NCBI GenBank assembly: GCA_903906365.1
Contig: CAIVKC010000019.1
Span: forward strand, 1-64,000
DNA from: an uncultured Bacteroidota bacterium
Lineage (GTDB): Bacteria; Bacteroidota; Bacteroidia; Chitinophagales; Chitinophagaceae
Length of the DNA stretch: 64,000 nucleotides
Direction of reading: 5' to 3'
Shown here: positions 6,634-62,903 of the stretch, one piece after another
Layout: each line of letters begins with the position of its first letter
Position numbering within the stretch: position 1 is the first letter of the stretch
Made by a program: the position numbers and the translations under genes
The notes under the pieces: generated by a model
Seen by the model: only the letters and a program-made list of their open reading frames with translations
What the model was told of the DNA's origin: nothing
The model's database searches: none

Positions 6634-6663
6634 TGTTGAAATAAACCATCCATTAGATATTAT

Positions 6664-8510: not shown

Positions 8511-8518
8511 ATAACGCT

Positions 8519-9406: not shown

Positions 9407-9443
9407 TCATCAAACCCCCGCAAGGGAATAAAATTGTTCTGAC

Positions 9444-10410: not shown

Positions 10411-11358
10411 ATGACACAGCCTCCCCCCAAAAAATTTGTACCGGTGATGATCACCCCCTTTACTTCCCAGTCGGCCATTGACCTGTATGCCCTCTCGGAG
10501 CTGACCGATTTTTACCGCTCGGCCGGAGTGGATGGGTTTTTTGCCAACTGCCTGAGCTCGGAAATGTTTTCCATCTCGGAAACCGAGCGGCTGGAGCTCA
10601 CCAGGCACGTCGTGGACCAGGTCAATGGCGCCCTGCCGGTGGTCGCCACCGGTTCTTTCGGGGTGACCCTGGAGGAAAGGGCCGAATCCACCCGCAGGGT
10701 CTATGATACGGGGGTGGATGCCGTCATCATGATCTCCAGCCATTTTGCCCTGGCCCAGGAGAGCGACCAGGTCCTGACCGACCAGCTCCAAACGCTTTTA
10801 GGGCTTACGGGCAGCATTCCGCTGGGGATATATGAATGCCCTGCTCCCTATAAAAGAATTCTTTCACCCCAGGTTTTTTCCACCCTGCTGGCCTCCGGCC
10901 GTATGGTATATCATAAGGACACTTCGCTGGTGCCCGCCCTGGTCAAAGCCAAGCTGGACCTGCTGAAGGCCTCCGGCAACCAGAACCTCGAATTCTACGA
11001 TGCCCACACCCCCAATACCCTGTTTTCACTGGGGGCCGGCGCCCGGGGCATGTCCTCCATATCCGGGAATTTTTACCCGGAGATCATGTCCTGGATCTGC
11101 CACCATTTGGGCGACCCATCCCGTGAAGAGGACCTGCAGTGGATACAGTCTGAGATATCCCGCGTGGATCCCATCATACACCAGGGATACCCGGTGAGTG
11201 CCAAATATTTTTTACAAAAAAGGGGACTCTCGCTGCAAAGCCTGTCCCGGAGCCAGGTTTATTCACTTTCCCCCGATCAGCAAAGGGACCTCGATCAGGT
11301 CTATGTGGATTTCCTGGGCTGGTGCGACCGCCTGGGCATACCCGTTGTGAGGCCATGA
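10411..11358 (+). CDS. DHDPS/N-acetylneuraminate lyase family aldolase, cytoplasmic copy
   Basis: Class I aldolase of 315 residues. The Schiff-base lysine is Lys169 in VYHKDTS and the catalytic tyrosine is Tyr141 in GIYECPAPYKR. The usual GTTGE carboxylate-binding loop is replaced by the sequence FANCLSSEM (45-52), so the acid end of the substrate may be held differently from that in DapA or NanA. No signal peptide. Family members split 2-keto-3-deoxy sugar acids or sialic acid, or the reverse. A close paralogue with a Tat signal lies at 37066-38145; the two share KKFVPVM, TRHVV, VVATGSFG, SGNFYP and other blocks. In the operon it would carry out the carbon-carbon cleavage. Confidence 0.88.
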   Translation: MTQPPPKKFVPVMITPFTSQSAIDLYALSELTDFYRSAGVDGFFANCLSSEMFSISETERLELTRHVVDQVNGALPVVATGSFGVTLEERAESTRRVYDTGVDAVIMISSHFALAQESDQVLTDQLQTLLGLTGSIPLGIYECPAPYKRILSPQVFSTLLASGRMVYHKDTSLVPALVKAKLDLLKASGNQNLEFYDAHTPNTLFSLGAGARGMSSISGNFYPEIMSWICHHLGDPSREEDLQWIQSEISRVDPIIHQGYPVSAKYFLQKRGLSLQSLSRSQVYSLSPDQQRDLDQVYVDFLGWCDRLGIPVVRP

Positions 11359-11383
11359 TATCTTAAATCGATTGCCCATTACA

Positions 11384-16016: not shown

Positions 16017-16769
16017 ATGCTTAAGGAAGAAAGGCATAAGATAATTCTGAAAGAAATCAACCTGCACAATAAGGTGCTTTCCACCGATCTGAGTGAGCAA
16101 CTGGTTGTTTCTGAAGATACTATACGCAGGGATTTAAATGAACTTTCTGAACAGGGACTGATAGTCAAAGTGCACGGCGGGGCAATGGGTAAGACTTTTC
16201 ATTACCCTTTCAACGGACAGAACCAGGTTTATGCCCAGGAAGCCAAGCAGGTTATTGCGGATAAAGCCATCGGCCTATTCCAAAAAGATATGCTGATCCT
16301 GGTAGAAGGGGGGACCACCATCATGGAGATTGCCAAGAAGATACCCCCCGATTTGAAAGCGACTTTCATGACCATCAGCCCCCAGGTGGCCCTGACGCTC
16401 GCAGAACATGAGCAAATCGATGTGATCACCATCGGGGGCCGGCTCGCCAAAAATGCCTATGTGCATACCGGCGCCAGCGTGATCTATGAACTGGCCAATA
16501 TCCGGCCCGACCTCTGCATCATCGGAACCAACGGCATCTCCCCGGAAGGAGGCCTGACCGATACGGACTGGGAGGTGGTGCAGGTGATCAAAGCCATGAT
16601 CCGGTCGGCCAAAAAAACAGCCGTGGTCAGTATAGCCGAAAAATTTAATACAGTACAAAAGATCAAAATAAGCGATTGGACAGCCATTGATTACATCATT
16701 ACCGAATTGCCACCCGATAGCCCTGTCCTGTCTGCTTATTCCGGAAAAGAAAAACCCGTACTGCTTTAA
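16017..16769 (+). CDS. DeoR/GlpR-family transcriptional repressor
   Basis: 250 residues, the standard size. The N-terminal winged helix-turn-helix is clear (LSTDLSEQLVVSEDTIRRDLNEL, residues about 21-43, then GLIVKVHGGAM). The C-terminal half is the DeoR sensor domain with a phosphosugar-isomerase-like fold (LVEGGTTIMEIAK, TISPQVALTLAEH, IGTNGISPEGGLTDTD). Such regulators release DNA when a sugar phosphate binds. Divergent from the murQ-porter-kinase unit and about 200 bp upstream of the SusC gene, it is well placed to regulate both in response to an amino-sugar phosphate. The start at 16017 follows a purine-rich AGAGAGAAGG ribosome-binding region. Confidence 0.92.
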   Translation: MLKEERHKIILKEINLHNKVLSTDLSEQLVVSEDTIRRDLNELSEQGLIVKVHGGAMGKTFHYPFNGQNQVYAQEAKQVIADKAIGLFQKDMLILVEGGTTIMEIAKKIPPDLKATFMTISPQVALTLAEHEQIDVITIGGRLAKNAYVHTGASVIYELANIRPDLCIIGTNGISPEGGLTDTDWEVVQVIKAMIRSAKKTAVVSIAEKFNTVQKIKISDWTAIDYIITELPPDSPVLSAYSGKEKPVLL

Positions 16770-16974
16770 TACCCTAACCTTTCTTAAAAATAAGACGATC
16801 CGTCCCTGAAGGCCGGTACATGCCAGCCATGACCTGCTGACTGGGCTGTTGCTGTGAACGGATGCCCGCGGTCCGCAGGGTAATCAGGCAGCAAGGGGGG
16901 GCATCAAAAAGGGCACAGATATTCATTTTTATACAAGTAAAACTTTCGATTCTCTAACTGCTAATTCATCCACC

Positions 16975-19900
16975 ATGTGTAAAAAATTTTTGAACGCCCC
17001 CTTGTTACAATGGCCCATGCTGTTGTTAGGCTTCCTGCTTGTTTTCTCCGGCCCCTCCATGGCCCAGAACAGCAATGCCCCCAAGGGACAAATCATTGTA
17101 AAAGGAAGGGTATCCGATGCCAGCGGCCCGCTGGCAGGGGCCAATGTGATGGAAAAAGGCGGCTCCAGGGGGGCTACCACCGATTCTTCCGGGAATTTTA
17201 CAATTCCGGTCTCGGGGCCTGATGCCATCCTGGTCTTCTCCTTCATCGGCTATGAGAACCTGGAAATGCCTGTAAGGGGAAAGAACTTCCTGCAGGCCAA
17301 ACTGCAGCCGGGCAGGGGTGAGAACCTCTCCGGTGTAGTAGTCACCGCCCTGGGCATCACCCGCAACAAAAAATCACTCGGATACGATGTAGGCCAGGTG
17401 AGCGGGGAAGAAATGAACCGGGTAGCCCAGACCAATGTACTCAATGCCATGGCCGGAAAGGTCTCCGGCGTGACCATCAGCTCCACCGGGGCTTCACCCA
17501 CCTCTTCGGTCAGCGTGGTCATCCGCGGCACCCGGTCACTGAACAGCGACAACCAGCCGCTCTTTGTGATTGACGGGGTACCAGTCAAAAACAGCCTGAG
17601 CAATATTGGCACCAATACCGGCAGCGGCAATGATGTGGATTATGGAAATGTGATTTCCGATCTCAACCCCAATGACATTGAAAGTGTTTCCATCCTCAAA
17701 GGGCCGAGCGCCGCTGCCCTGTACGGTTCCAGGGCCGGAAACGGCGTGGTACTGATCACCACCAAGAGCGGAAAGAAAAGCAAAGGCCTGGGTGTTACCT
17801 TCAATTCCAATACCGAGGCGGCGATCCCTTACCACTACCTCCCCAACAATATGGATTATACCGTGGGTACTGACCCCTACACCACGCCCAATGGCTTTAA
17901 CAGCTGGAATGGCGTACTGGTGGATCTGGCCGGTACCAACACCTACCGCTTTGGCACCCCGCTCAACAAGGGACTCAGCGCCATCCAGTGGAACAGCCCG
18001 CAGGACGCCAGCGGCAATTACCTGCCCCTGCCGATGGTCAGCCATCCGAACCTGAAGAATTTTGTGCAGACCGGCATTACTTCCACCAACAGCGTGGCGG
18101 TGGAGAATTCAACCGACAGGGACAATTACCGGTTCTCCTATACCAATATGGCCAACCAGGGAATTATCCCCACGACCGGTCTGAGCAGGCATAACCTGGC
18201 TCTTAACATAGAACATAAACTAAACAGCGCCCTCAAACTGACTTCCGTGATCAATTACAGCCGTTCCAACTCCGACAATGTGGTGGGCGGCAATGACGGG
18301 GTACTCAAATATGTAGCTTATCTGTCCCCCAGTGTGGACATTCGCCAGATGAAGAACTACTGGCTGACCCCCGGCATCCAGCAGCGCAAGGCGCTGCCAC
18401 CGGTTGGTGTGGACCAGAGTCCCGGGGCGCCTGACCAGGCATCCAACGGGGACGACAACCCCTGGTTTGTACTCAATCAGGTAAAAAACAGCTTTTTGAG
18501 AAACCATCTATTCGGGAACCTGAAATTAAATTACCAGATCAGCCCGCATGTAAGCGCCTTTATGCGTTATTCACAGGACCTGTTCTATGAAAACAGGGAA
18601 ACCAAGATCTCCAAGAGTTTTGACGGGGAACTCAACGGTTATTATGGCCTGACCAACATTCACAATTCGGAGAGCAACACGGACTTTTTGGTCACCTATC
18701 AGAATTCCTTCCTGGAGAAATTCGACCTCTCCGCCTCTGCCGGGGGTAACCTCCAGTATGTGTACGGTGCCTCCAACCAGGTCTATTCAGCCTCAGGTGG
18801 CGGAATCATCGCCCCTGAATTCTTCAATGTCTCCAACATATCCCGGGACAATATCCGCAATAACTCCGGATGGAACCAAAAGGCGGTCTACAGCTTGTAC
18901 GGCACGGCCTCCCTGGGTTACCAGGGCATGGCCTACCTGGACCTGACCGGAAGGAATGACTGGTCAAGCACCCTGCCTGTCGGTCAGAACTCCTATTTCT
19001 ATCCTTCTGCTTCCTTAAGCCTGCTGATCAACAAGATGCTGAACCTGGGTCACAACATCAGCCTGCTGAAACTGCGTGGCGGATGGGCCAGTGTGGGTAA
19101 GGATACCGACCCCTACAATCTTTATGGCACGGTAGGCGTGGGCAGCTTCGGGGGCATCATCACCCAATCCACTTCTTCTACCCTGAAGAACCCCAATCTG
19201 AAACCGGAGCAGGCCGTTTCCACCGAACTGGGAGTCGAGCTGGCTATGTTCAAAAGCAGGCTTCGTTTTGAAGGGACCATTTACCGGTCCGATAACAAAA
19301 ACCAGATATTGTCGATCAGCACCCCCGGCTCCTCCGGGTATACAGGCCGCCAGATCAATGCAGGTCTGGTGCGCAGCCAGGGCATCGAACTGAGAATTGG
19401 CGGAACCCTTATTTCCAACAAGGACTGGACATGGGATATGAGTGTAAATTATACCCATAACGATGCTTATATTATGTCCCTCGCCCCCGGGGTGAACTAT
19501 TTCTCCTTCTGGCAGGACGGACGCAGTGGTTCCTGGACCTATGCCAAAGGCCAGCCCATTCCCAATAATTTCGATGCCAACGGCAAGCAGGTCATCAGCG
19601 ACGGGAAACTGGGGCAGCTCTGGGATAACCAGATTGCCACCGTTACCGATAAGAGCTCACCTTATTACGGGTATCCCCTGCTGGACAACGGCGGCTTCCT
19701 GCAGACCGTGGGAAATGGCGACTTCCAGCATAAAGTGGTGGTTGGCAACTATAACCCCCGCCTGCTCATGGGCATGCAGACCTCCGTTTCCTGGAAGATG
19801 CTGACCCTCAATGCCAGCTTTGACATGCGCCTGGGAGGCACCTTCTTTTCACAGACCTACCGTTATATGCAGTCCGATGCGGCCATGGAGCGGCAGACCA

Positions 19901-20493
19901 ATGTGGGCATCCCCATACCTGCGGCCCATCAAAATGACATCCCCGGTTATCTCAAAACCAATCCCAATGCCTTCATCAAGATCCAGGGTAGACTGGCCCA
20001 GTTCCACCTGGTGGGCGGACCTACCAAAGAGACCGGCGGCTTTCCCTATACGGATAATGGCAACATCACCATCAACGATGGCGCCTTTTATCCCGGCGTC
20101 TATGACGATGGCAATGGCGGATATGTGGAGAACCTGGGCGATCCCAGCGTGACCAAACTGGATAATTACGAGGATGCCGTAACCGCCAGCTGGCCTTTTG
20201 CCAGAATGAGCATGTTCGACGCCTCCTATATCAAATTGCGTGAACTGACACTGACCGCGCAGCTGCCCAAAAGGTGGTCCGATGCGCTGCACCTGCAGGG
20301 AATTTCCTTTGGGGTATATACCCGCAATATCATCATCTGGACCAAGGCCAAGGCGGGCATTGATCCGGAACTGGCTTTCCAGTACCAGACCGGACCCCAG
20401 GGCAATGGCTCCCAGTTCAGGCAGGGTATCGAACGCTACAACATCACCCCCTGGACGATTCCGGCCGGTGTAAAACTCAATGTTCATTTCTAA
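16975..20493 (+). CDS. SusC/RagA-type TonB-dependent outer-membrane transporter
   Basis: 1172-residue outer-membrane porin. In order: signal peptide ending SMAQ, a carboxypeptidase-D-like domain (IIVKGRVSDASGPLAGANV to about residue 100), the plug domain with GVVVTALGITRNKKSLGYDVG, SVVIRGTRSLNSDNQPLFVIDGVPV and PNDIESVSILKGPSAAALYGSRAGNGVVLITTK, then a large beta barrel ending in aromatic-terminated strands (GVKLNVHF). It pairs with the SusD gene directly downstream and takes up oligosaccharides with energy from TonB. No sigma/anti-sigma pair is adjacent; the DeoR-type gene upstream is the nearest regulator. The GH20 gene downstream suggests amino-sugar glycans or peptidoglycan fragments as cargo. 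Confidence 0.96.
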   Translation: MCKKFLNAPLLQWPMLLLGFLLVFSGPSMAQNSNAPKGQIIVKGRVSDASGPLAGANVMEKGGSRGATTDSSGNFTIPVSGPDAILVFSFIGYENLEMPVRGKNFLQAKLQPGRGENLSGVVVTALGITRNKKSLGYDVGQVSGEEMNRVAQTNVLNAMAGKVSGVTISSTGASPTSSVSVVIRGTRSLNSDNQPLFVIDGVPVKNSLSNIGTNTGSGNDVDYGNVISDLNPNDIESVSILKGPSAAALYGSRAGNGVVLITTKSGKKSKGLGVTFNSNTEAAIPYHYLPNNMDYTVGTDPYTTPNGFNSWNGVLVDLAGTNTYRFGTPLNKGLSAIQWNSPQDASGNYLPLPMVSHPNLKNFVQTGITSTNSVAVENSTDRDNYRFSYTNMANQGIIPTTGLSRHNLALNIEHKLNSALKLTSVINYSRSNSDNVVGGNDGVLKYVAYLSPSVDIRQMKNYWLTPGIQQRKALPPVGVDQSPGAPDQASNGDDNPWFVLNQVKNSFLRNHLFGNLKLNYQISPHVSAFMRYSQDLFYENRETKISKSFDGELNGYYGLTNIHNSESNTDFLVTYQNSFLEKFDLSASAGGNLQYVYGASNQVYSASGGGIIAPEFFNVSNISRDNIRNNSGWNQKAVYSLYGTASLGYQGMAYLDLTGRNDWSSTLPVGQNSYFYPSASLSLLINKMLNLGHNISLLKLRGGWASVGKDTDPYNLYGTVGVGSFGGIITQSTSSTLKNPNLKPEQAVSTELGVELAMFKSRLRFEGTIYRSDNKNQILSISTPGSSGYTGRQINAGLVRSQGIELRIGGTLISNKDWTWDMSVNYTHNDAYIMSLAPGVNYFSFWQDGRSGSWTYAKGQPIPNNFDANGKQVISDGKLGQLWDNQIATVTDKSSPYYGYPLLDNGGFLQTVGNGDFQHKVVVGNYNPRLLMGMQTSVSWKMLTLNASFDMRLGGTFFSQTYRYMQSDAAMERQTNVGIPIPAAHQNDIPGYLKTNPNAFIKIQGRLAQFHLVGGPTKETGGFPYTDNGNITINDGAFYPGVYDDGNGGYVENLGDPSVTKLDNYEDAVTASWPFARMSMFDASYIKLRELTLTAQLPKRWSDALHLQGISFGVYTRNIIIWTKAKAGIDPELAFQYQTGPQGNGSQFRQGIERYNITPWTIPAGVKLNVHF

Positions 20494-20527
20494 GACCTAC
20501 ATTCAGTCAAATCTAAAAATACTCAAA

Positions 20528-22300
20528 ATGAAAAGCGCAAAGAAAATAGGAACAGTAATATGCGTTTTCTTTATAATAGTTACCCTGGGGGACTCGTGCA
20601 AGAAATTCACGGTGTTAAACAGTGATCCCAACTCGATCACCCCGGACCTGGCTTCCCCCGATTACCTGATGGCCAATGTGCTGACCCAGTCGGCGATGTG
20701 GTATGGCAACCTGGGTTCGGGCATGATGTCGGGCGCGGTACAGCAAACCTACCAGGATGCCTTCGGTAACGGCTTCAGCGGCTACCAGTGGGATCCAACT
20801 CCCTGGAATACCAACTACTCCATCCTGCGCGATAACAAACTGCTCAACCAGAAGGCTGTAGCCAACGGCTGGCGCTTTCACCAGGGCGTTTCCCTGGTCA
20901 TGCGGGCCTTTAACTTTGGCAACATCGCTGATTTCTGGGGTGATGCGCCGGATTCTTCGGCCCTCAACGGCGACAAAGCCGGAAGCCAGAACCAGTTTCC
21001 GGTTTTCGATGCCCAGGACCAGGTCTATGCCCGTGTAATCTCCACCTTACAGCAGGCCATTCCGCTGCTGCAGGGTACCATGGACGAACACAAGGAAATC
21101 ACCCCGGTGACCATTTCCTCCGACGTGTATTACGGCGGAAATCCGGTGGCCTGGAAAAAGTTCGCCTTTTCCCTGATGCTGCGCTATTACATGCGCCTTT
21201 CCTCCAAAATGAACGTTCAGTCAGCCGTGGAAGCCGTGGCCGACAGTGTATTTCAGTCAAATGACGATGACGCTCAGATGGTACTGCCCGGCGCTGACCA
21301 GGGAACTTCCTACCAGTTCTGCTCCAAGTTCAACGGAGCTTCCGGTTACGACAGGAACAAGATGTGCGGTACGCTGACCATGAAACTAAAAGCACTCAAA
21401 GATCCCCGTGTGGTCATCATGGCCCAGCCGGTGGTCACCCCTTCGATAGTTGACGCCAGCCAGTTTGCGCCCGGGGATAACACGACCCTGGTCAACCTGG
21501 TCAATGGCATACGCTATATCAACCCTGCCGCTGCCACCGCTTCCAAATTCAAGCAGTTTGACCCGGCCACCTACCTGCAGGACCGCCCCTATGGCGCCGT
21601 ACTGTCCAATATCTACAGCCTCTACGATACCTCCTCCTATTATGTGGGTATCCCTCCCAGTTATGGCAACAATGATTTCCAGTATAACATCAACGGAGCA
21701 GGCAACCAGGCCTATTCGCTCAATGACTACGTATCCTACCTGAGAAGGGATATCTATGACAATCCCAGCGGCCCACTGCTGGTGCAGAAGCTGGCTTCCT
21801 ACAGTGAAATGTGTTTTGACCTGGCGGAGGCTTCCCTGAACGGCTGGACTATTAAAGGATCCGCTGCCCAGTGGTACAACGCAGGAATACAGGCTTCCTT
21901 TGACAAGTGGCAGGTCTTCAGCAGCTACCAGTCTGACGTCAATAATTATTATGGCTGCGTCAAGGATGCTGCCAGTTACCTGGCCCAGCCGGCGGTAGCC
22001 TATAACGGCACGCTGCAGCAGATCATCGAACAGAAATGGATCGCTTCCTGGCAGGCCTGCAATGAAGCCTATATGGACTGGAGAAGGACAGGGTTTCCTT
22101 CCCTGACCATCGGATGGGCTTCCTACCGGGGAGCCATACCCGTAAGGTTCGCCTACGATAACACAGAACTGCAGAACAATTCGGCCAACGGGGATGCCGC
22201 CATTGCCAAACTCCAGACAAGCCCTTATGTGGGTCCGGACGGCAACAACAGTTCCTGGTCGAAATTCTGGTTATTGCAGGGAACCGGCAAGCCCTGGTAA
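20528..22300 (+). CDS. SusD/RagB-like outer-membrane glycan-binding lipoprotein
   Basis: 590 residues from the ATG at 20528; the upstream in-frame ATG at 20480 overlaps the SusC stop and lacks a signal. The N-terminus (MKSAKKIGTVICVFFIIVTLGDSC) ends in a lipobox cysteine followed by KK. The body resembles the SusD-like_2 group (LNSDPNSITPDLASPDYLMANVLTQSAMWYG, DKWQVFSSY, IEQKWIASWQACNEAYMDWRRTGFPSL). It forms the lid over the SusC channel and binds the incoming glycan at the cell surface. It follows SusC by 34 bp and precedes GH20 by 17 bp, so the three are one transcription unit. Confidence 0.95.
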   Translation: MKSAKKIGTVICVFFIIVTLGDSCKKFTVLNSDPNSITPDLASPDYLMANVLTQSAMWYGNLGSGMMSGAVQQTYQDAFGNGFSGYQWDPTPWNTNYSILRDNKLLNQKAVANGWRFHQGVSLVMRAFNFGNIADFWGDAPDSSALNGDKAGSQNQFPVFDAQDQVYARVISTLQQAIPLLQGTMDEHKEITPVTISSDVYYGGNPVAWKKFAFSLMLRYYMRLSSKMNVQSAVEAVADSVFQSNDDDAQMVLPGADQGTSYQFCSKFNGASGYDRNKMCGTLTMKLKALKDPRVVIMAQPVVTPSIVDASQFAPGDNTTLVNLVNGIRYINPAAATASKFKQFDPATYLQDRPYGAVLSNIYSLYDTSSYYVGIPPSYGNNDFQYNINGAGNQAYSLNDYVSYLRRDIYDNPSGPLLVQKLASYSEMCFDLAEASLNGWTIKGSAAQWYNAGIQASFDKWQVFSSYQSDVNNYYGCVKDAASYLAQPAVAYNGTLQQIIEQKWIASWQACNEAYMDWRRTGFPSLTIGWASYRGAIPVRFAYDNTELQNNSANGDAAIAKLQTSPYVGPDGNNSSWSKFWLLQGTGKPW

Positions 22301-22317
22301 CAGGCTGCCAAGAAAGC

Positions 22318-24357
22318 ATGATGGCTCAAAAGTTTATATTAATATGCTGTGCGCTGCTGGCAGGCCTGCTGGCCAGGACCCAGGAAAACAACAGCCTGAA
22401 CCTGATGCCGGTGCCGGTTTTGCTGACAGCCCACCCGGGCAGGGTGGATATTGGCGAAGGCTTCCGGGTATCCGTGCGCGGCAAACCGGACCGGCGCATC
22501 TTTGCGGAAGCCAGCCGGTTTGTCCGCCGCCTCTCCGAGCGCACGGGTATCTTCTTGGACCACCAGGGCTTCGTGAGCCCCTCGGACAGCAGCCCCTCAG
22601 CGGCCCTGCTGATACAGATCAGGCGTCCGGGTTCCCTGAAACTGGGGGAGGACGAAAGCTACTCGCTGGAAAGCGGCGGCGGCCAGGTGATCCTTTCCGC
22701 CGTGACCGATATCGGGGCCATCCGCGGACTGGAGACCCTGTTGCAATTGGTCAGCGCCGATGAAAAGGGCTATTTTTTCCCGGGACTCAGTATACGAGAC
22801 TACCCCCGCTTTGCCTGGAGGGGTCTGCTGCTGGACGTGGCGCTTCATTTCATGCCCGTCGACCAGATCAAAAGAACCCTGGACGGCATGGCCTGCGTCA
22901 AAATGAACGTGCTTCACCTGCACCTCTGCAATGACCAGGGTTTCCGGGTGGAGTCCAGGCGTTTCCCCCGGCTGCAGCAGGTGGCCTCCGACGGCGTCTA
23001 TTACACGCAGCAGGAGATTCGCGAACTGGTGGCCTACGCATCGCAGCGCGGCATTCGCATCGTACCCGAATTTGTCGTGCCGGCCCATACCACGGCCATC
23101 CTGACTGCCTACCCCCAGTGGGCCAGTGTAAAAAGAAAGTACTCCCTGCAGCGATATTTTGGGGTGTTCGACCCCGTGATGGATCCCACCAATGAACGGC
23201 TCTACCCCTTTTTGGACACCCTTTTTTCGGAGATGGCCTCCCTTTTTCCCGATGCCTATTTCCACATCGGCGGGGATGAAAATACCGGTAAGGACTGGCA
23301 AAGTGAGCCGCATATCCGCCGGTTCATGGCTGAACGGGGCATGAAATCCTTTATGGACCTGCAGACCTATTTCAACCGCCGCCTGCTGCCCATCATTGAA
23401 AAAAACGGAAAGACCATGATGGGCTGGGATGAGATCCTGCAGCCGGGCGTTCCAAAACAGATCGTCATCCAGTCCTGGCGGGGCAATGCCTCTTTTTACG
23501 GATCCCTGCGCCAGGGATACAGGGCCATCCTTTCCTATGGATATTATATTGACCTGATACAACCGGCTTCCTACCATTACCAGAATGATCCGATTCCCGA
23601 CTCGGCGGCCCTGTCGGCCCAGGAGCAGCAGCGTGTACTGGGTGGTGAAGCCACCATGTGGAGTGAACTGGTCTCACCCCTCACGGTCGATTCCAGGATA
23701 TGGCCGCGTACCGCGGCCATTGCAGAGCGGCTTTGGTCCCCCCGATCTGTAACCGATACGGAGGATATGTATCGCCGGCTGGATATAATAAGCCTTGGGC
23801 TGGAAGCCCTCGGGCTGCGCCACAGGACCTATAAACAGGTGCTGCTGCGACAGCTGGCCCACGGAGACGACACCCGCTCACTGGAAGTACTTTCCGACCT
23901 GATTGAACCGCTGAAGATCTATGAAAGAAACCAGGGGGATACGATGTATACCGTCTTTTCCCCGCTGACCAAGCTCGCTGATCTGGCCTCTCCCGACCAG
24001 CCGCAGCCCAGGATCTTCAGCCGTGAAGTGGATTCCTTCCTGTTGCACCCCTCCCCGGCTCTGAGACAGCTGTTGTGGGACAAATTAAACTGCTGGAAAC
24101 AAAATGACGCCCTTTTCCAAAGACTGCTGCTGGGCGCCCCGGTGCTTCGGGAGGCCGCCGGATTGTCCCGGAACCTGTCGCTGCTGGCGGGAGCGGGACT
24201 GGATGCCATGGAGGCCCTGGATGCCGGAAGGAAAATGGACGGGGCCTGGCTGGAGCAGCAACTGCTGGTTGCCGCCCGCGCCCGCCAGCAGGGCGGAAGA
24301 TGCGAATTGCAGGTAGTCGACGCCGTTCAAAGACTGATCGAGCGGGCTGCCCGTTAA
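22318..24357 (+). CDS. GH20 beta-N-acetylhexosaminidase
   Basis: 679-residue secreted enzyme with signal peptide, a GH20b-type N-terminal domain (about 30-160) and the GH20 barrel: RGLLLDVALHFMPVDQIK, VLHLHLCNDQGFR, then HIGGDENTG with the catalytic Asp320-Glu321 pair. The C-terminal 200 residues are helical and unassigned. GH20 enzymes remove terminal GlcNAc or GalNAc by substrate-assisted catalysis. Two usual motifs are altered: PEIDMPGH is PEFVVPAH, and the DDQG motif is NDQG, so specificity may differ from standard hexosaminidases. Directly downstream of SusCD and near murQ and the kinase, it probably supplies amino sugars for that pathway. Confidence 0.9.
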   Translation: MMAQKFILICCALLAGLLARTQENNSLNLMPVPVLLTAHPGRVDIGEGFRVSVRGKPDRRIFAEASRFVRRLSERTGIFLDHQGFVSPSDSSPSAALLIQIRRPGSLKLGEDESYSLESGGGQVILSAVTDIGAIRGLETLLQLVSADEKGYFFPGLSIRDYPRFAWRGLLLDVALHFMPVDQIKRTLDGMACVKMNVLHLHLCNDQGFRVESRRFPRLQQVASDGVYYTQQEIRELVAYASQRGIRIVPEFVVPAHTTAILTAYPQWASVKRKYSLQRYFGVFDPVMDPTNERLYPFLDTLFSEMASLFPDAYFHIGGDENTGKDWQSEPHIRRFMAERGMKSFMDLQTYFNRRLLPIIEKNGKTMMGWDEILQPGVPKQIVIQSWRGNASFYGSLRQGYRAILSYGYYIDLIQPASYHYQNDPIPDSAALSAQEQQRVLGGEATMWSELVSPLTVDSRIWPRTAAIAERLWSPRSVTDTEDMYRRLDIISLGLEALGLRHRTYKQVLLRQLAHGDDTRSLEVLSDLIEPLKIYERNQGDTMYTVFSPLTKLADLASPDQPQPRIFSREVDSFLLHPSPALRQLLWDKLNCWKQNDALFQRLLLGAPVLREAAGLSRNLSLLAGAGLDAMEALDAGRKMDGAWLEQQLLVAARARQQGGRCELQVVDAVQRLIERAAR

Positions 24358-31133: not shown

Positions 31134-31958
31134 ATGATGGGCAATACAAACAACATACTGCTGGAAAAACTGGAAAGGGGCCAACAAGTGTATGGCACCT
31201 GTATCACGGCCACGGGCCCCCTGTGGCCGGCGGCCACCGCCCGGGCGGGACTGGATTTTGTATTTATTGATACCGAACATATTCCGCTCAGCCGCCAGGA
31301 ATTGTCTGCACTCTGCCAGTCCTACCGGGCCCGCGGGGTGGTTCCCATCGTGCGTATTCCGTCCCCGGATCCCTTCAGCGCCTGCCAGGCCCTGGACGGG
31401 GGCGCCCAGGGTATTGTCATGCCATATGTGGAATCCGTCGGGCAGCTTACTGAATTGGTGGCAGCCGTCAAATACCGCCCCCTCAAAGGGGAACTGCTGC
31501 AGGACTATCTGGCCGGACGGCGCGAAATGCCCGGGCCGCTGCGCGATTATATCCGTTCCTTCAATGCGCCCAACCTCTGCATAGCCAATATAGAAAGTGT
31601 GCCCGCCTTGGAACGGCTGGAGGAGCTCCTGGCCGTGGCCGGCCTGGATGCCGTATTCATCGGACCCCATGACCTGTCGGTCAGCCTGGGGCTGCCCGAA
31701 CAATATGACCACCCCGAATTTGAAAAAGCCGTCCGGACCATTATACATGCCTGCCGTGCCCGCGGTATCCACGTGGGTATTCATTTTTCCCTCGAACCCT
31801 CCCGGCAGGTGCAGTGGATCAGGGAGGGGGCCAATATGGTGGTGCACAGCTTTGACATTGCCCTGTTTACCCAGCGGCTCTGCCAGGATATGGACTTTAT
31901 CAAAAAAGCGGCAGGCGACCAGCCGGGGGATTCAGCACCAGGCTCCCTGGTCGTATGA
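31134..31958 (+). CDS. HpcH/HpaI-family class II aldolase
   Basis: 274-residue cytoplasmic aldolase of the HpaI/GarL/RhmA group. Expected residues are visible: His in DTEHIPLS, Arg in VRIPSPDPF, the metal-binding Glu in NIESVPALERL and Asp in FIGPHDLSVSLG, and the late conserved block GIHFSLEPSRQVQWIREGANMV. These enzymes split 2-keto-3-deoxy sugar acids or 4-hydroxy-2-ketoacids into pyruvate and an aldehyde. It is the last gene of the plus-strand block that began with SusC, and is followed by a convergent gene 48 bp away. It may handle a keto-acid derived from the same glycan; the substrate is unknown. Confidence 0.85.
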   Translation: MMGNTNNILLEKLERGQQVYGTCITATGPLWPAATARAGLDFVFIDTEHIPLSRQELSALCQSYRARGVVPIVRIPSPDPFSACQALDGGAQGIVMPYVESVGQLTELVAAVKYRPLKGELLQDYLAGRREMPGPLRDYIRSFNAPNLCIANIESVPALERLEELLAVAGLDAVFIGPHDLSVSLGLPEQYDHPEFEKAVRTIIHACRARGIHVGIHFSLEPSRQVQWIREGANMVVHSFDIALFTQRLCQDMDFIKKAAGDQPGDSAPGSLVV

Positions 31959-34717: not shown

Positions 34718-36157
34718 TCAGGAAAGTATCTTCCAGCCTTCGCGGTAATCCCTTTTTACAAACTGGTTGGCCGGTTCAAAATTGGTGATGCGCATGTTTT
34801 TGGCATCCCAGAGCAATTTGATCCTGCCGGGATTGTCCGGGTCGGAGTCCTTGAGTTTATGGGTGTCTTCCAGGCCCCAGCTGCGAATGGCGAGGTTGCC
34901 TATCAGGATGCTTTCGGTAAAGGGCCCGGCGTATTCAAACGGAGAGCTGGTCTTGGCGTTTCCAAATCCGGCGATGCAGGCATTGACCCATTGCAGGTAA
35001 TGGCCTTCCGGAACCCGCGGGATGGTCTGGGCGGGCATGGTGGTTTCCGCCATCAGCTTGCTGGGAAGCAGACGGGGCCTTTCGCCGTAGCAATCGACCA
35101 TCATCTTGCCTTTGGTGCCGATGAAAAGAGCACCTCCGTCATCACCGCCAAACTGTTCGCCCGGAAGGAGTTCATCGGGCAGGGCAGGCAGCAGCCCGCC
35201 ATCATACCAGGAAACACGGATGGTGCCTTTTTGGTCCTTGCGGGGATATTTGAGGTGTATCATGGAAGCGGCCGGGAACCCGTCGGGGTACTTGGCTTCC
35301 TTGCCGTCGGGGGTCCAGCTGGTGGGAATGGAACATTCCACTTCGGTGGGGAAGTCAATGGGCAGCAGCCGGAATACGGGGTCCATCATATGACAGGCCA
35401 TATCACCCAGGGCGCCGGTGCCAAATGCGTTAAAGCCCCTCCAGCTCCATGGACAGTAGGCCGGGTTATAATCAACATATTTGGCCGGGCCCAGCCAGAG
35501 GTTCCAGTCGAGTTCTTTGGGCACTGCAAATTTCCCGGTTGGCGTGGGCAGTCCCTGGGGCCAGATCGGGCGGTTGGTCCAGACCTGTACGGTATGGACA
35601 TCACCGATCATGCCGGCATCATACATTTCTTTGGCCTGGCGCACGCCGTCACTGGATCCGCCCTGGTTGCCCATCTGGGTGACCACTTTGTATTTTTTGG
35701 CCGCTTCCGCCATCAGGCGGGCTTCATATATGTCGTGGGTGAGTGGTTTTTGGCAATAGACGTGTTTGCCCATGGCCATGGCCGAGAGGGCCGCTATGGC
35801 ATGGATATTGTCCGGGGTGGATACCGAGCAGGCGTCAATATTGTTCTTTTCCTTGTCGAGCAGCTCCCTGAAATCCTTGTAGAACTTGGCCTTCGGAAAA
35901 CGCTCCCTGGATTCTGCCGATCGCTTTTCATCCACATCGCAGAGGGCTACGATATTTACTTTTGGACTGCCTGAAAAATTCTTCAGGTCATCTGCGCCCT
36001 TGCCGCCTGCGCCGATGCCGGCGATGTGCAGCTTGTCGCTCGGGGCAATGAATCCACGGCCCAGCACATGTCGCGGAATGATCATCATACCGCCAGCTGC
36101 CAGGGAAGCATCCCTGACGAAATTTCTTCGGCTAATTGCCTTTTTTTCATCCTTCAT
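34718..36157 (-). CDS. Tat-exported Gfo/Idh/MocA family oxidoreductase
   Basis: 479 residues. The N-terminus has a twin-arginine signal (ISRRNFVRDASLAAGGMMI), so a folded, cofactor-loaded protein is exported. The Rossmann domain follows with GIGAGGKGADDL for NAD(P), CDVDE, and the family motif GKHVYCQKPLTHDIYEA with the conserved EKP region as QKP. The C-terminal alpha/beta domain includes WNLWLGPAKYVDYNPAY, WSWRGFNAFGTGALGDMACHMMD and DDGGALFIGTKG. Exported members oxidise sugars, often at C3 of glycosides, or use tightly bound NAD for hydrolysis as in GH109. Divergent from a DUF1080 lipoprotein gene, a partner expected for a 3-keto-glycoside route. Confidence 0.9.
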   Translation of the reverse strand: MKDEKKAISRRNFVRDASLAAGGMMIIPRHVLGRGFIAPSDKLHIAGIGAGGKGADDLKNFSGSPKVNIVALCDVDEKRSAESRERFPKAKFYKDFRELLDKEKNNIDACSVSTPDNIHAIAALSAMAMGKHVYCQKPLTHDIYEARLMAEAAKKYKVVTQMGNQGGSSDGVRQAKEMYDAGMIGDVHTVQVWTNRPIWPQGLPTPTGKFAVPKELDWNLWLGPAKYVDYNPAYCPWSWRGFNAFGTGALGDMACHMMDPVFRLLPIDFPTEVECSIPTSWTPDGKEAKYPDGFPAASMIHLKYPRKDQKGTIRVSWYDGGLLPALPDELLPGEQFGGDDGGALFIGTKGKMMVDCYGERPRLLPSKLMAETTMPAQTIPRVPEGHYLQWVNACIAGFGNAKTSSPFEYAGPFTESILIGNLAIRSWGLEDTHKLKDSDPDNPGRIKLLWDAKNMRITNFEPANQFVKRDYREGWKILS

Positions 36158-36397: not shown

Positions 36398-37030
36398 ATG
36401 GCTGTAAAAATTCCGCTCCCTGCCCTGACAGCTTGCTGGCTGCTGATGATAGCCTGCAGCGGATCCTCCCGGTCTGCCGGGGCGACAAGCCAGCCGCAGG
36501 GACCATGGATTTCCCTGTTCAACGGCAAGGACCTGAGTGGCTGGACCCCACACGGCAGCGCCGTATGGACGGTGCAGGAGGGGATCCTGACCGGCCAAGG
36601 CGGCCGCGGCCATATCTATGCAGACCCGCTGGTCCGTAATTTTGAAATAAAGGGCGAATTCCGCATCATCGACCTGGGAAAGGGGGCCAACAGCGGCCTG
36701 TATTTCCGGGCACATCCCCCCAAACAGGACCTCAACGGTTTTCCGCAGGGCTACGAGGCACAGATCTGCAATAACCAGGAAGCCTCTACGGGCTGGCTGT
36801 GGAAGCCGGGGACACCTACCGGTGCCGCCTCAGCGCTGCTCACAAAGGACGGTGAATGGTTTGCCATGAGAGTTCAGGCAGTGGGAACCCTGATCCGGAT
36901 TTGGGTAAAGGATTCGCTGGTGATGACCCACCGTGACGGCCAGTACCGCCAGGGTATGTTTGCCATTCAATGCCACAATGACGGCATGCAGGCCCAGGCA
37001 CGCAACCTCTACTACAGGCCGCTTCCCTGA
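36398..37030 (+). CDS. DUF1080 (3-keto-disaccharide hydrolase domain) lipoprotein
   Basis: 210 residues with a lipoprotein signal (PALTACWLLMIACSG, lipobox MIAC). The mature protein is a single DUF1080 beta-jellyroll: WISLFNGKDLSGWTPHG opening, GILTGQGGRGHIYAD, NFEIKGEFRI, the GANSGLYFRAHP block and GYEAQI. Members of this family cleave 3-keto-glycosides after C3 oxidation of the sugar. The family's usual size is about 200-250 residues, so it is complete. The Tat oxidoreductase on the other strand is the natural supplier of the keto substrate. Located in the periplasm or outer membrane by the lipid anchor. Confidence 0.88.
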   Translation: MAVKIPLPALTACWLLMIACSGSSRSAGATSQPQGPWISLFNGKDLSGWTPHGSAVWTVQEGILTGQGGRGHIYADPLVRNFEIKGEFRIIDLGKGANSGLYFRAHPPKQDLNGFPQGYEAQICNNQEASTGWLWKPGTPTGAASALLTKDGEWFAMRVQAVGTLIRIWVKDSLVMTHRDGQYRQGMFAIQCHNDGMQAQARNLYYRPLP

Positions 37031-37065: not shown

Positions 37066-38145
37066 CTAAATCCGGGCAGGCTGTATGCCGATGCGGCTGC
37101 ACCATGCCTGCAGTTTGGTATAGGTATCGTCCAGACCCTGTATCTGCTGGGGGGTCAGCGCAGAAGTGGAAGTCCTGCTGATCACTTCGATGGGCACCCC
37201 TCTTTTGCGCAGGAAATATTTGGCGCTCAGCGGGTAGTTCTGGGAGATGATGTCCTCTGTTTTTGTGAGCTGCTCCTGAATGAATTTTACGTCTTCCTGC
37301 CTGTCGGGGTTGGTGGACTGGGCGCACATCCAGGCCAGTATATCCGGGTAGAAATTCCCGGAGATCGCCGACATCCCCTTTGCGCCTGCCTGCAGGGAAT
37401 ACATTGTGTTGGCTACACAGGCATCATAGAATTCCAGCCGGTTGTTCCTGGCCATTTCTATTTTTACTTTTACCTTATCAAAATCAATGGTGGTGTCCTT
37501 ATGGTATAACATCCGGCCGCTGTTCAGCAGGTAGCCAAAGGCAGCAGGCGTCAGGATTCTCTTATAGGGTGAGGGGCATTCGTAGGTGCCCATGGGAATA
37601 TTGTCGGTTAACCGGAAGAATTTATCAAACTGGCTGATGAGTACTTCATCGGACTCATCGCTTTTTGCAAAATGGCTGGTGATCATGATCACCGCGCTGA
37701 TGCCCGTGTGGTAGATCTTTTTGGCGAACTCGGCTTTGTCAGCCAGGGTTTCTCCAAAGGAACCGGTGGCCACTACGGGAACGGCCCCGTTTACATATTT
37801 GACGACATGCCGGGTCAGGCTCAACCGTTCCTGTTCAGTGAGGTTGTACATTTCAGAACTGGCGCAGTTGGCAAAAAAGCCCCTGACACCGGAGGCCAGG
37901 TAAAAATCAATGAGCCTGGAGAGCCCGTCATAATCTATCTGACCGTTTTGCAGATAGGGAGTGACCATGACGGGCACGAATTTTTTGTGGCTTTCAAAGG
38001 GCCCATCCCCGGTTTTGCGGCCCTTGTCATTTTTGGGGGTAGCCAGGGCGGTGGCTCCCCCGGCGACCCCCAGGGTCAGGGCCAGTGAGCCGGCGGTTAT
38101 TTTACCTAAAAAATTGCGTCTGGAAGAAGCTTCGGATTCCTTCAT
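37066..38145 (-). CDS. Tat-exported DHDPS/N-acetylneuraminate lyase family aldolase
   Basis: 359 residues. The N-terminus SSRRNFLGKITAGSLALTLGVAGGATAL is a twin-arginine signal, unusual for this normally cytoplasmic class I aldolase family. The catalytic core starts at KKFVPVMVTPY. Lys216 (LYHKDTT) is the Schiff-base lysine and Tyr188 (TYECPSPYKR) the catalytic tyrosine, so activity is expected. As in the paralogue at 10411-11358, the carboxylate loop is FANCASSEM instead of GTTGE. The two share most motifs and clearly arose by duplication. Upstream on the same strand lie a YhcH/NanQ-like lipoprotein and a BNR sialidase-like gene, pointing to extracytoplasmic breakdown of a keto-acid sugar. 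Confidence 0.88.
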   Translation of the reverse strand: MKESEASSRRNFLGKITAGSLALTLGVAGGATALATPKNDKGRKTGDGPFESHKKFVPVMVTPYLQNGQIDYDGLSRLIDFYLASGVRGFFANCASSEMYNLTEQERLSLTRHVVKYVNGAVPVVATGSFGETLADKAEFAKKIYHTGISAVIMITSHFAKSDESDEVLISQFDKFFRLTDNIPMGTYECPSPYKRILTPAAFGYLLNSGRMLYHKDTTIDFDKVKVKIEMARNNRLEFYDACVANTMYSLQAGAKGMSAISGNFYPDILAWMCAQSTNPDRQEDVKFIQEQLTKTEDIISQNYPLSAKYFLRKRGVPIEVISRTSTSALTPQQIQGLDDTYTKLQAWCSRIGIQPARI

Positions 38146-38265
38146 GGCGGATGGTATTGTTGGAAGACATTAAAATTACAACTACTTTATATAATATTCA
38201 ATTAGAATCGGCTAAACCAGCGTTTTGTACTTTTTTGCGGACCCTGCCCCGGGGCGCAGGAACTG

Positions 38266-38877
38266 TCAGGGGACTTGGGCGGTTTGTATTTTGAGGACGA
38301 TTTTTTTTACCCTGTCATAGCCAGGCACTCGGATGGTAGGCCGGTGGGCATTGTTGGGGAAAAATAAAAAAAAGGTACCCGGCTGCGCCACATAATAGGT
38401 TCCTTCCGCCTGGTAGTTGATGACATCCACCGTATAGGGCTTGGTAATGGCGGCCCCTGAGGTGTCGGCCACGCCGATCTGCTCTTTTCCGCTGATGACA
38501 TACTGCAGGTCTATATAATCTTTATGGGATTCCCATTTGACGTCTTCGATCCGGTTGGAGGGGTTGTCCGTTACGTTCGCAAAGACATGCTCGCCCACAA
38601 TGGGATATTTGCCCGGCGGCAGCTGCTGTAAATCCTGGTTTTTCAGGAAGGCAAAGGCCGCATCCCAGAGGCGTTTATTGCGGTGATAAGCCACGTAAAA
38701 GGAATCCATATCGGTGGATGGGTGCAGCTGCCAGGTCAGGCCGCCGGCCCAGGTCCTTGATTGAACCCACCGGTTGATTTTGGCGCGGGACACAGCGGCC
38801 GGGTGATGGGCGGTGCTGCAGGAAAGCAGCTGTGAAACAACCAGGAACAAAGCGGTGGCGGTAAAAAGACATTTCAT
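38266..38877 (-). CDS. YhcH/YjgK/YiaL family lipoprotein (NanQ-like anomerase family)
   Basis: 203 residues from the ATG at 38877, which begins a lipoprotein signal (MKCLFTATALFLVVSQLLSC); an upstream ATG at 38916 would bury it. The mature part is the YhcH/DUF386 cupin-like fold: IVGEHVFANVTDN, the metal-site block WESHKDYIDLQYVISGKEQI and FFLFFPNNAHRPTI, containing the family's conserved His and Glu residues. E. coli YhcH (NanQ) speeds anomer conversion of N-acetylneuraminate in the cytoplasm; family members are usually about 150 residues and not exported. A lipid-anchored form between a BNR sialidase-like gene and an exported NAL-family aldolase suggests the same chemistry outside the cytoplasm. 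Confidence 0.85.
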   Translation of the reverse strand: MKCLFTATALFLVVSQLLSCSTAHHPAAVSRAKINRWVQSRTWAGGLTWQLHPSTDMDSFYVAYHRNKRLWDAAFAFLKNQDLQQLPPGKYPIVGEHVFANVTDNPSNRIEDVKWESHKDYIDLQYVISGKEQIGVADTSGAAITKPYTVDVINYQAEGTYYVAQPGTFFLFFPNNAHRPTIRVPGYDRVKKIVLKIQTAQVP

Positions 38878-39004
38878 CGGCAATGGCCTCCCTGGCTTGT
38901 TTAAATGGGGAGACAATAAAATTAGGCAAATACCCCTGAATAAGCCCCGGTTTATTCAGAGGAGGGGCCCGCCTTTGGTTTTAGTTGATTTGTAATCCGG
39001 GCAT

Positions 39005-40195
39005 TCAACGCAGCGATGCCGGATCCAGGTCCACCACCTTGATCGATTCCCCCATCTTATCGAGAGAATAGGAATAGCTGATATGCAGCAGACCATCCAG
39101 GGACTGGATCAGGCAGGGATAAGAAAAACTGCCTTTGCCGCGGATGGCATTTTCCAGGTAGCGCTTCCATTTCCAGGTCCTTCCTTCGTCCTCGGACACA
39201 TACAGGCTTAACCGGTAACGCCCGTCATCTTCGTCATCCCCTACAAAGGCCCATCGCCCGTCTTTGAGCAGGAGCAATTCCACGCTGGCTGTATTGGGAA
39301 TGGAGGTCTTCTGTGCGGCCGTCCAGCTCCGGCCGCTGTCCGGGGACTCACTGGTCTGCACCCGGCTTGGTTCATCGCCGTTATCCCGCATATAGGCGAT
39401 GATATGCCCGTTTTTTTTCTGCAGCAGGGCCGGCTGTACATTACCCCTGCCCACAATGGGCAGGCTGGCCTTCCAGGTTTGCCCGTCGTCATCGGAGATC
39501 GCAATCAGGCTCATATTGAAGCCATCTGAGTACAGGGGAAGCAGTATGCGGCCGCTGCTGAGGCGAAGGGGTTTTATTCGGGTCATCCAGCCGGTGCTTC
39601 TTTTATACTGGTCGCGGCTTGCCTCCTGGATCATCTCATCATACCGGGGGGCGTAGGTTCCCGATCCGCTGGTGTTTTCGGGGAGCTCTTTGAACCGGGC
39701 TGCCGTTTGGAGGGCAAAGCTGTCGTTGGGCTGGAGCAGGATATTGTCCTGCCAGTTCCACACAGGCGCTCCGTCTGCTGCATAATCGTTGGAAGTGCGG
39801 TACCGCAGCAGGGAGCATTCCCAGCGGTGGGCCTGCACGGCGATCCAGACCAGGAACAGGGTGCCCCGGCTGTTTAAAAACAGCACGGGGTTGCAATCCG
39901 GCAGGCCATAGGTATCTGCCATCAGGAAGGGTTCCGACCAGTTCTTTGCCCCTTTTTTGAGCCTGGAGCCCATGATGCGCACGTCATCTGCGGTACGCTC
40001 CCCGCTGCCCTGGAACCAGGCCGCCAGCAGGTCTCCCCCGGGAAGCTCCGTCAGGCTGCTGCCATGGGCATGCTGGGACTGCAGGGGAAAGATCAAAGAC
40101 TCCCGGAGCGTTGCCGCCTTTTCAGTGGCAGGCTGGCCGGTGGCCCAGGCAGCCAGGACCAGGAGGATGCCAACCAACAATAGCGCTCGTTTCAT
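39005..40195 (-). CDS. Secreted BNR-repeat sialidase-like protein
   Basis: 396 residues from the ATG at 40195, chosen because it begins the signal peptide MKRALLLVGILLVLAAWATG; a longer frame to 40381 lacks one. The protein is a BNR_2-type six-bladed propeller with Asp-box repeats: SDDDGQTWK, SPDSGRSWT and SEDEGRTWKW. Opening motif HAHGSSLTELPGGDLLAAWFQGSGE. The FRIP/YRIP arginine motif of GH33 sialidases is not seen, so true sialidase activity is doubtful; related propellers include other glycosidases and lyases. First of three minus-strand genes with the YhcH lipoprotein (127 bp gap) and the Tat aldolase (120 bp gap). Confidence 0.8.
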   Translation of the reverse strand: MKRALLLVGILLVLAAWATGQPATEKAATLRESLIFPLQSQHAHGSSLTELPGGDLLAAWFQGSGERTADDVRIMGSRLKKGAKNWSEPFLMADTYGLPDCNPVLFLNSRGTLFLVWIAVQAHRWECSLLRYRTSNDYAADGAPVWNWQDNILLQPNDSFALQTAARFKELPENTSGSGTYAPRYDEMIQEASRDQYKRSTGWMTRIKPLRLSSGRILLPLYSDGFNMSLIAISDDDGQTWKASLPIVGRGNVQPALLQKKNGHIIAYMRDNGDEPSRVQTSESPDSGRSWTAAQKTSIPNTASVELLLLKDGRWAFVGDDEDDGRYRLSLYVSEDEGRTWKWKRYLENAIRGKGSFSYPCLIQSLDGLLHISYSYSLDKMGESIKVVDLDPASLR

Positions 40196-62261: not shown

Positions 62262-62903
62262 ATGAAGAAACTTTTGTCAGTAGCCGTCGTATTAGGTTGT
62301 ATGGTGCTGTTTACGGCAGAAAAGACCCCCTTACAGAACCAATGGTATTCCCTCTTTGATGGCAAATCACTGGATGGCTGGAAAGTGGGAAAGAATGCCT
62401 CCACTTTTTCGGTTGACAGCGGTTGCATTGTCGTCCATGGCCCTACCGCCCACCTGTTTTATGACGGGAAGGTAAAAAACCACGAGTTTAAGAATTTCGA
62501 ATTCCAGGCCCAGGTAAAGACCATGCCCGGATCCAATTCAGGCATTTACTTTCATACCGAATACCAGGAAGGCGGCTGGCCGGCCAAGGGCTATGAGGTG
62601 CAGGTAAACAATTCCCATTCCGATGACACCCGCACGGGGAGCCTCTATGATGTGGTGGATGTCAAGGAAGTGTTTGTAAAGGATTATGTATGGTTCACTG
62701 AATATGTAAAAGTCGTGGGAAAAAGGGTGATCGTGAAGATCAATAACACCATTGTGGTGGATTATACCGAACCCGAACACCCGCTGCGCACCCAGGACCA
62801 TCCCATGCGCCTGATTTCAAAGGGCACTTTTGCCCTGCAGGGCCATGATCCCAACAGCATCGTCTATTTTAAAGACATTAAAGTCAAGCCGCTGGCAGAC
62901 TAA
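62262..62903 (+). CDS. Secreted DUF1080 (3-keto-disaccharide hydrolase) protein
   Basis: 213 residues with a signal peptide (MKKLLSVAVVLGCMVLFTAE). DUF1080 jellyroll with WYSLFDGKSLDGWKVG, CIVVHGPTAHLFYDG, FEFQAQVKTMPGSNSGIYFHTEYQ, GYEVQVNNS and GSLYDVVDVKE. It is shorter than its upstream neighbour and different enough that the two are not recent duplicates. It probably works with the upstream copy on different keto-glycosides. A strong intrinsic terminator follows 105 bp after the stop. Confidence 0.9.
   Translation: MKKLLSVAVVLGCMVLFTAEKTPLQNQWYSLFDGKSLDGWKVGKNASTFSVDSGCIVVHGPTAHLFYDGKVKNHEFKNFEFQAQVKTMPGSNSGIYFHTEYQEGGWPAKGYEVQVNNSHSDDTRTGSLYDVVDVKEVFVKDYVWFTEYVKVVGKRVIVKINNTIVVDYTEPEHPLRTQDHPMRLISKGTFALQGHDPNSIVYFKDIKVKPLAD

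Follow-up and report, generated by a model that had tools for sequence, protein, structure and literature searches.

A candidate extracytoplasmic pathway for a non-sialate sugar acid, with a predicted exported anomerase and aldolase, in a Chitinophagaceae contig

The window analysed here is a 64,000-nucleotide stretch (positions 1 to 64,000, forward strand) of contig CAIVKC010000019.1, assembly GCA_903906365.1, from an uncultured Bacteroidota bacterium of the family Chitinophagaceae. It contains three neighbouring minus-strand genes, described in an earlier note made from the sequence alone as a candidate exported sialate-like pathway; their coordinates and strand were given correctly, and their families are confirmed by Pfam scores:

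37066..38145, minus strand: NALt, a class I aldolase of the DHDPS/NAL family, predicted to be exported by twin-arginine translocation (Tat) (359 aa; PF00701)
38266..38877, minus strand: YhcH/DUF386 protein with a leader, a putative anomerase (203 aa, ATG start at 38877; PF04074, TIGR00022)
39005..40195, minus strand: BNR_2 propeller of sialidase fold with a Sec-type leader (396 aa, ATG start at 40195; PF13088)

The genes are separated by 127 bp (BNR to YhcH) and 120 bp (YhcH to NALt). NALt scores 97 bits against PF00701 (cut-off 22) and belongs to the DHDPS/NAL superfamily by score and fold; the YhcH protein, at 121 bits against PF04074 (cut-off 26.5) and 82 bits against TIGR00022 (cut-off 45.5), is a member of the YhcH/YjgK/YiaL (DUF386) family; the BNR protein, at 166 bits against PF13088 (cut-off 31.4), is a sialidase-like beta-propeller. 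Within their own genome the YhcH and BNR proteins each retrieve only themselves; PF13088 has four matches genome-wide, namely two parts of the BNR gene, one match on another contig that exceeds the cut-off and one that falls short of it. The NAL family is likewise matched four times, by NALt, by a sister in the same window (NALc) and by two distant proteins.

All three proteins carry export signals, as the earlier note had proposed, and such signals are kept in relatives. NALt begins with the twin-arginine leader SSRRNFLGK (TIGR01409 17.3 bits, cut-off 16.7, E 0.0046) and TatC is encoded in the same genome (206 bits), so that NALt is predicted to be a Tat substrate. The BNR protein has a hydrophobic Sec-type leader and the YhcH protein a lipobox, LLSC, both recognised by eye. 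The lipobox noted earlier is present here and is not conserved: its pattern is matched in one of the 13 YhcH proteins adjoining Tat-bearing NAL genes, while 11 of the 13 have a hydrophobic leader ending in a Sec-type ..AQ site (by eye); from these sequences, export of YhcH looks to be kept across relatives and lipidation does not. Medians of a hydrophobicity measure are 2.62 for the 13 YhcH and 2.41 for nine BNR proteins versus 1.36 for 50 cytoplasmic NAL rows (maximum 2.12), the exported and cytoplasmic sets overlapping at the edge. Tat leaders, with a median of 1.70, are hardly separable from cytoplasmic N-termini by this measure, and the Tat claim therefore rests on the twin-arginine motif; "cytoplasmic" denotes simply a NAL row with no such motif within its first 45 residues.

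To survey relatives, an alignment of four Tat-NAL proteins was used as query and 77 loci were kept from the best 80 of 534 relatives; genes were called mechanically as the longest open reading frames of at least 90 aa, and the isomerase-like gene at 8519 was searched separately. Of the 83 NAL rows obtained from these loci, 32 matched the pattern for a twin-arginine motif, 49 did not, and two were set aside: L119, in which the Tat motif PRRDFLQK was found on inspection, and L089, which has RQ where RR is expected. YhcH is the direct same-strand upstream neighbour of 13 of the 32 Tat-NAL genes versus none of the 49 cytoplasmic ones (Fisher p 9e-7, nominal because the rows are related), with YhcH-NALt gaps of 5-69 bp in the 13 loci. 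The exact order BNR-YhcH-NALt recurs in 4/32 Tat-NAL loci (L078, L084, L086, L117) in addition to the window. YhcH and the aldolase are thus genetically linked. Neither outcome named in the earlier note as refuting its proposal, N-termini typical of cytoplasmic proteins or a lack of co-occurrence in relatives, was encountered, the signals having been judged by motif, profile score and eye.

The Schiff-base lysine and catalytic tyrosine of NALt, also pointed out earlier, are K216 and Y188; both are invariant in 46/46 aligned subfamily sequences and align with K165 and Y137 of Escherichia coli NanA, to which NALt has 20% identity in the alignment. A tree was built from 89 NAL rows and two distant sequences. 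On one side of it (support 91/98, below the starred level) stand 54 rows that lack the Tat motif, NALc included, and the Tat-bearing rows fall outside this group; the 33 Tat rows require four label changes in all, and the leader may have had a single origin. The two motif-less rows outside the cytoplasmic side are L089 and L075, the latter on a very long branch.

Four putative metal ligands of YhcH (E116, H118, D123, H178) are common to E. coli NanQ and invariant in the set aligned. The 50 matches listed for the BNR model are nearly all sialidases; Y359 of the BNR protein, kept in 20/20 relatives, aligns with the catalytic tyrosine of GH33, and R270 and R326 (20/20) align with arginines of NanC. 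The first arginine of the GH33 triad lies outside the NanC alignment and by eye corresponds to H44, which is His in 20/20.

Further genes of the window, most of them with homologues near members of this trio elsewhere, are the following:

10411..11358, plus strand: NALc, cytoplasmic sister aldolase, 54% identical to NALt
11372..12985, plus strand: SiaT-like sodium symporter (SSS) adjoining NALc; SiaT 5nv9 is its best solved relative (234 bits versus 133 for the next)
5926..10316, plus strand: cytoplasmic HumPS-family, Zn-ADH, SDR, xylose-isomerase-like barrel and SMP-30 genes; homologues adjoin BNR-YhcH-NALt in L037/L078
12962..15916, minus strand: BadF-like kinase, NagP-like MFS transporter and MurQ-subfamily SIS protein; homologues in one run with NALc-SSS-BNR-YhcH-NALt (L078)
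16017..24357, plus strand: DeoR regulator, SusC, SusD and GH20; homologues in YhcH-bearing Tat-NAL loci
31134..31958, plus strand: HpcH/HpaI-family aldolase; a homologue adjoins the BNR gene in two relatives (L040, L042)
34718..36157, minus strand: predicted Tat-exported Gfo/Idh/MocA protein, glycoside 3-dehydrogenase-like (BT_2158_fam 493 bits, under the cut-off of 750)
36398..37030, plus strand: 3-keto-disaccharide hydrolase family protein with a leader (PF06439)
62262..62903, plus strand: second PF06439 protein (3-keto-disaccharide hydrolase family); its relatives belong to the larger clusters

The larger clusters of the four loci with the exact gene order include genes that lie apart in the window, at 5.9-16.8 kb and 34.7-40.2 kb. 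Across the 13 YhcH-bearing Tat-NAL loci, homologues were tallied for Gfo in 10, HumPS in 9, ADH in 8, SDR, SusC and the PF06439 gene at 62262 in 7 each, BNR and NALc in 6 each, DeoR in 5 and GH20 in 2; isomerase-like homologues occur at 80-86% in 7 loci. The fullest arrangement is that of L037 and L078, which are one contig occurring in two collections. A single run there comprises DeoR (opposite strand), MurQ-like SIS, NagP-like MFS, BadF-like kinase, NALc and the SiaT-like symporter, together with BNR, YhcH, NALt, Gfo, PF06439, HumPS, ADH, SDR, isomerase-like barrel and SMP-30; every gene of the run has a homologue in the window, divided among 5.9-16.8 kb, 34.7-40.2 kb and 62.3 kb. The window genes are thereby predicted to constitute one pathway rather than three genes.

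Equivalents of SiaT Ser60, Thr63 and Arg135, the carboxylate-binding residues, are present in 56/56 symporter rows (48 distinct). The glycerol-tail contact of SiaT, Gln82, is replaced by L or I in all 56. Of the 49 cytoplasmic NAL genes, 43 have a homologue of this symporter no more than 3.5 kb away.

The sequences directly show the protein families, the export signals with their conservation, the gene linkage, the catalytic residues and, in the symporter, the residues that bind carboxylate in SiaT; all enzymatic activities, where and in what order they act, and the substrate are inferred. It is proposed, with confidence slightly better than even, that the genes are a module for catabolising a 2-keto-3-deoxy (ulosonic) sugar acid, ring opening and aldol cleavage being extracytoplasmic; the residues would point to a carboxylated substrate, ring opening and Schiff-base chemistry, and the substrate is probably not N-acetylneuraminate (Neu5Ac). 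The exported BNR protein would bind a terminal acid residue by its carboxylate and release this residue; exported YhcH, probably metal-binding, would accelerate ring opening of the released acid; and Tat-exported NALt would take the open form on its Schiff-base lysine to give pyruvate and a shorter aldose. The products and, through the SiaT-like symporter, any uncut acid would then enter the cell, where cytoplasmic NALc could act. According to PMC8141875, E. coli YhcH/NanQ is a characterised anomerase that supplies the open form to the aldolase NanA, the benefit from the anomerase NanM is greatest at pH 6, and KDN is helped while the largely open 2-keto-3-deoxyxylonate is not; on these findings, placing an exported anomerase beside an exported aldolase would make chemical sense if the ulosonic acid is cyclic. 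The wider claim, that some Bacteroidota split a non-sialate ulosonic acid into pyruvate and an aldose outside the cytoplasm, with an anomerase and a class I aldolase both exported (the latter by Tat) and an altered sialidase-fold family supplying them, is tentative, and we hold it to be somewhat doubtful.

Several observations weigh against this proposal. NanA D191, E192 and S208, which we take to be sialate-contacting residues, are replaced by V244, A245 and I261 in NALt (across the 46 rows, V, S, I, T, A or M occurs at position 244 and A, P or V at 245), so that the NanA sialate contacts are not kept; the NAL family also includes dehydratases and synthases. The GH33 catalytic glutamate, presumably the partner of the catalytic tyrosine, aligns in NanC with Q254 of the BNR protein, which is Gln in 20/20; the BNR family thus keeps the tyrosine of the pair without the glutamate and, probably with His for the first arginine, would have an altered active site. 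Among 147 same-family genomes, the Tat kind of NAL is taken to be present in four (G000, G013, G074, G059), part of the N-termini having been read. Furthermore, 19 of the 32 Tat-NAL loci, from genera such as Larkinella, Dyadobacter and Algoriphagus, have none of the 15 tallied genes, YhcH and BNR included, in the 4.6-21 kb examined per locus at the tally thresholds; NALt is therefore not dependent on a neighbouring YhcH of this kind. This all-or-nothing pattern of genes argues for a real module, and also for use of Tat-NAL elsewhere without it.

The enzymes of the clusters admit other assignments. NALt could be a Schiff-base lyase or dehydratase acting with the Tat-exported Gfo/Idh/MocA protein and the PF06439 hydrolase on 3-keto sugars, with YhcH as mutarotase for that sugar; the frequency of Gfo (10/13), HumPS (9/13) and PF06439 (7/13) in the YhcH-bearing loci is consistent with this, as are the dehydratases of the NAL superfamily, among them L-KDA dehydratase and KdgD, both of which were matched, and the occurrence of exported-type YhcH in family genomes without NALt in the 7-20 kb taken. 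Set against it, the cytoplasmic NAL gene has the SiaT-like symporter within 3.5 kb in 43/49 cases and Gfo in 4/49, and the cluster-type PF06439 family occurs in 0/45 loci having cytoplasmic NAL only, so that a carboxylated acid seems a better candidate than a neutral 3-keto sugar for the common substrate of the subfamily; the 3-keto assignment is considered unlikely, though it carries some weight. It is improbable that the locus serves mainly cell-wall utilisation (N-acetylmuramic acid, MurNAc, and N-acetylglucosamine) of the murTKQ kind, with resemblance to sialate genes at family level only. The window does encode a SIS protein that scores 309 bits against the MurQ-subfamily model PRK05441 (cut-off 168), a NagP-like MFS protein (368 of 625 bits), a GH20 and, weakly, a BadF-like kinase; PMC5790795 describes Tannerella murTKQ as having a transporter of the sodium-symporter superfamily, a BadF-family kinase and MurQ; and the carboxylate-binding arginine would fit MurNAc as well. 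However, MurNAc is not a keto acid and would leave the anomerase-aldolase pair without a role, SIS genes lie within 3.5 kb of 4/49 cytoplasmic NAL rows compared with 43/49 for the symporter, the SIS protein falls under the TIGR00274 MurQ equivalog cut-off (259.8 of 302), and the kinase falls under that of PF01869 (16 of 31.5), short of MurK.

True extracytoplasmic Neu5Ac catabolism, with a BNR sialidase, a YhcH Neu5Ac anomerase, a NALt Neu5Ac lyase, and import and phosphorylation of N-acetylmannosamine, is very improbable. All three proteins match nanH/nanQ/nanA at family level, and the genome has the SiaT-like symporter, the NagP-like MFS protein, the BadF-like kinase and two PF07221 proteins; the "sialate-like" character given to the locus in the earlier note survives to this extent, together with the BNR arginines and tyrosine. 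It fails at the replaced NanA contacts and the BNR glutamine, and the substitution of SiaT Gln82 in 56/56 rows is a further point against Neu5Ac. The stronger statement that all three activities of sialate catabolism are present in these genes is not borne out: NALt scores 28.6 of 382 bits against TIGR00683 and 46.4 of 281 against NF003164, the NanA equivalogs, YhcH scores 80.3 of 160 against the NanQ equivalog NF040884, and a search of the genome for NanE (PF04131) gave no match. The MurQ-like, 3-ketoglycoside-type and HumPS-family genes of the clusters are unexplained by a sialate pathway.

The proposed ulosonic acid module shares features with several known systems. The E. coli yia/ula operons (YiaL, YiaQ, YiaR) place a DUF386 protein beside proteins of the orotidine monophosphate decarboxylase family and xylose-isomerase-like proteins, and the clusters here likewise pair a DUF386 protein with HumPS-family and xylose-isomerase-like genes; the HumPS protein differs in scoring best against hexulose-phosphate synthase models, and we know of no NAL or BNR member in yia/ula. 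The nan operons of Tannerella and other Bacteroidetes encode a sialidase, the NanOU SusCD pair and a lyase, and resemble the window in having SusCD, a sialidase-fold protein, GH20 and NAL-family genes together in one locus; their lyase is taken as cytoplasmic, and to our knowledge has no Tat leader. E. coli NanM belongs to another family than YhcH. It is a sialate mutarotase, a ring-opening enzyme located in the periplasm (PMC8141875), as is proposed for YhcH here; the aldolase partnering NanM, however, remains cytoplasmic. The nanATEK-yhcH system of E. coli links a DUF386 protein to a class I NAL-family aldolase, with the catalytic Lys/Tyr and putative metal ligands kept; YhcH is cytoplasmic and NanA cytosolic in E. 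coli (PMC8141875), whereas the counterparts here bear export signals, the NanA sialate contacts are replaced, and the transporter and downstream genes differ. The Bacteroidota 3-ketoglycoside pathway (BT2157/BT2158, lacABC-DUF1080) is similar in its Gfo/Idh/MocA and PF06439 proteins, which have leaders in the present clusters; periplasmic PF06439 hydrolases are proposed in PMC9007349, the accessible text of which mentions no YhcH or NAL member.

The system is rare within the phylum: in a sample of 395 genomes, own genome included, the BNR protein occurs in 4 and NAL in 9 at E 1e-60. Among the 147 same-family genomes, YhcH is matched in 76, BNR of the window kind is found in 8, and NAL at E 1e-30 or better in 26. 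The YhcH matches were divided by eye into a long form in 20 genomes (22 places; E 1e-34 or better), whose alignment starts in the leader region, and a short form whose alignment mostly starts at residues 56-85.

In the sialate catabolism described for E. coli, the aldol is cleaved in the cytoplasm, and nothing beyond ring opening, by NanM, takes place in the periplasm (PMC8141875). If the present proposal is true, an anomerase and NAL-family aldolase pair known from the cytoplasm has been moved outside it, and pyruvate release, a piece of central carbon chemistry, would be located in the periplasm; acid sugars would be dismantled before import, which would change the view of uptake, pyruvate cross-feeding and substrate choice in glycan-degrading Bacteroidota. 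A literature search covering titles and abstract openings, mostly of open-access journals, gave no paper naming an exported NAL-family aldolase or exported YhcH. The exported DUF386 group, the Tat-NAL group and the BNR family with its non-canonical active site provide a testable gene set.

Other arrangements of these families were also observed. In ten Larkinella/Dyadobacter loci (L107, L108, L110, L130, L138, L139, L140, L142, L146, L149) the Tat-NAL gene and a SusC/SusD pair face each other, the pair being too distant to pass the tally threshold, with no YhcH or BNR in the stretch examined; L098, another of the 19 loci without YhcH, has homologues of the window genes at 32007, 31134 and 29092. 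Exported-type YhcH also occurs in L056-L072, where the stretch taken includes no NAL gene; two of these proteins are near GH29-like genes (L057, L063), and the exported-type DUF386 group has more than one genomic setting. The BNR family stands beside a gene for an HpcH/HpaI-family aldolase, another pyruvate-aldolase family, at L040:9038-11422 and L042:9595-11618. A 765-aa protein with no Pfam match (window 26759-29056) has relatives near a BNR gene and SusCD in L038 and L041, and an 809-aa protein with a weak GH20b domain match (window 32007-34436), possibly an unclassified glycosidase, has relatives in larger clusters (L080, L084, L117). NALc-type loci of several Chitinophagaceae (window 10411-12985; L048, L049, L100, L115, L122, L124) variously have alongside them Fe-ADH, a DUF1537-type kinase, PdxA, another gene of the DHDPS family, or genes of GH78, GH2 and GH141; they form a candidate acid-sugar pathway that perhaps ends in a four-carbon acid. 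A 1265-aa fusion of a GH78-type rhamnosidase and a BNR_2 propeller is encoded at L100:4519-8313, and GH141 proteins with a C-terminal L-rhamnose mutarotase domain are encoded at L048:15790-18300 and L122:14190-16703.

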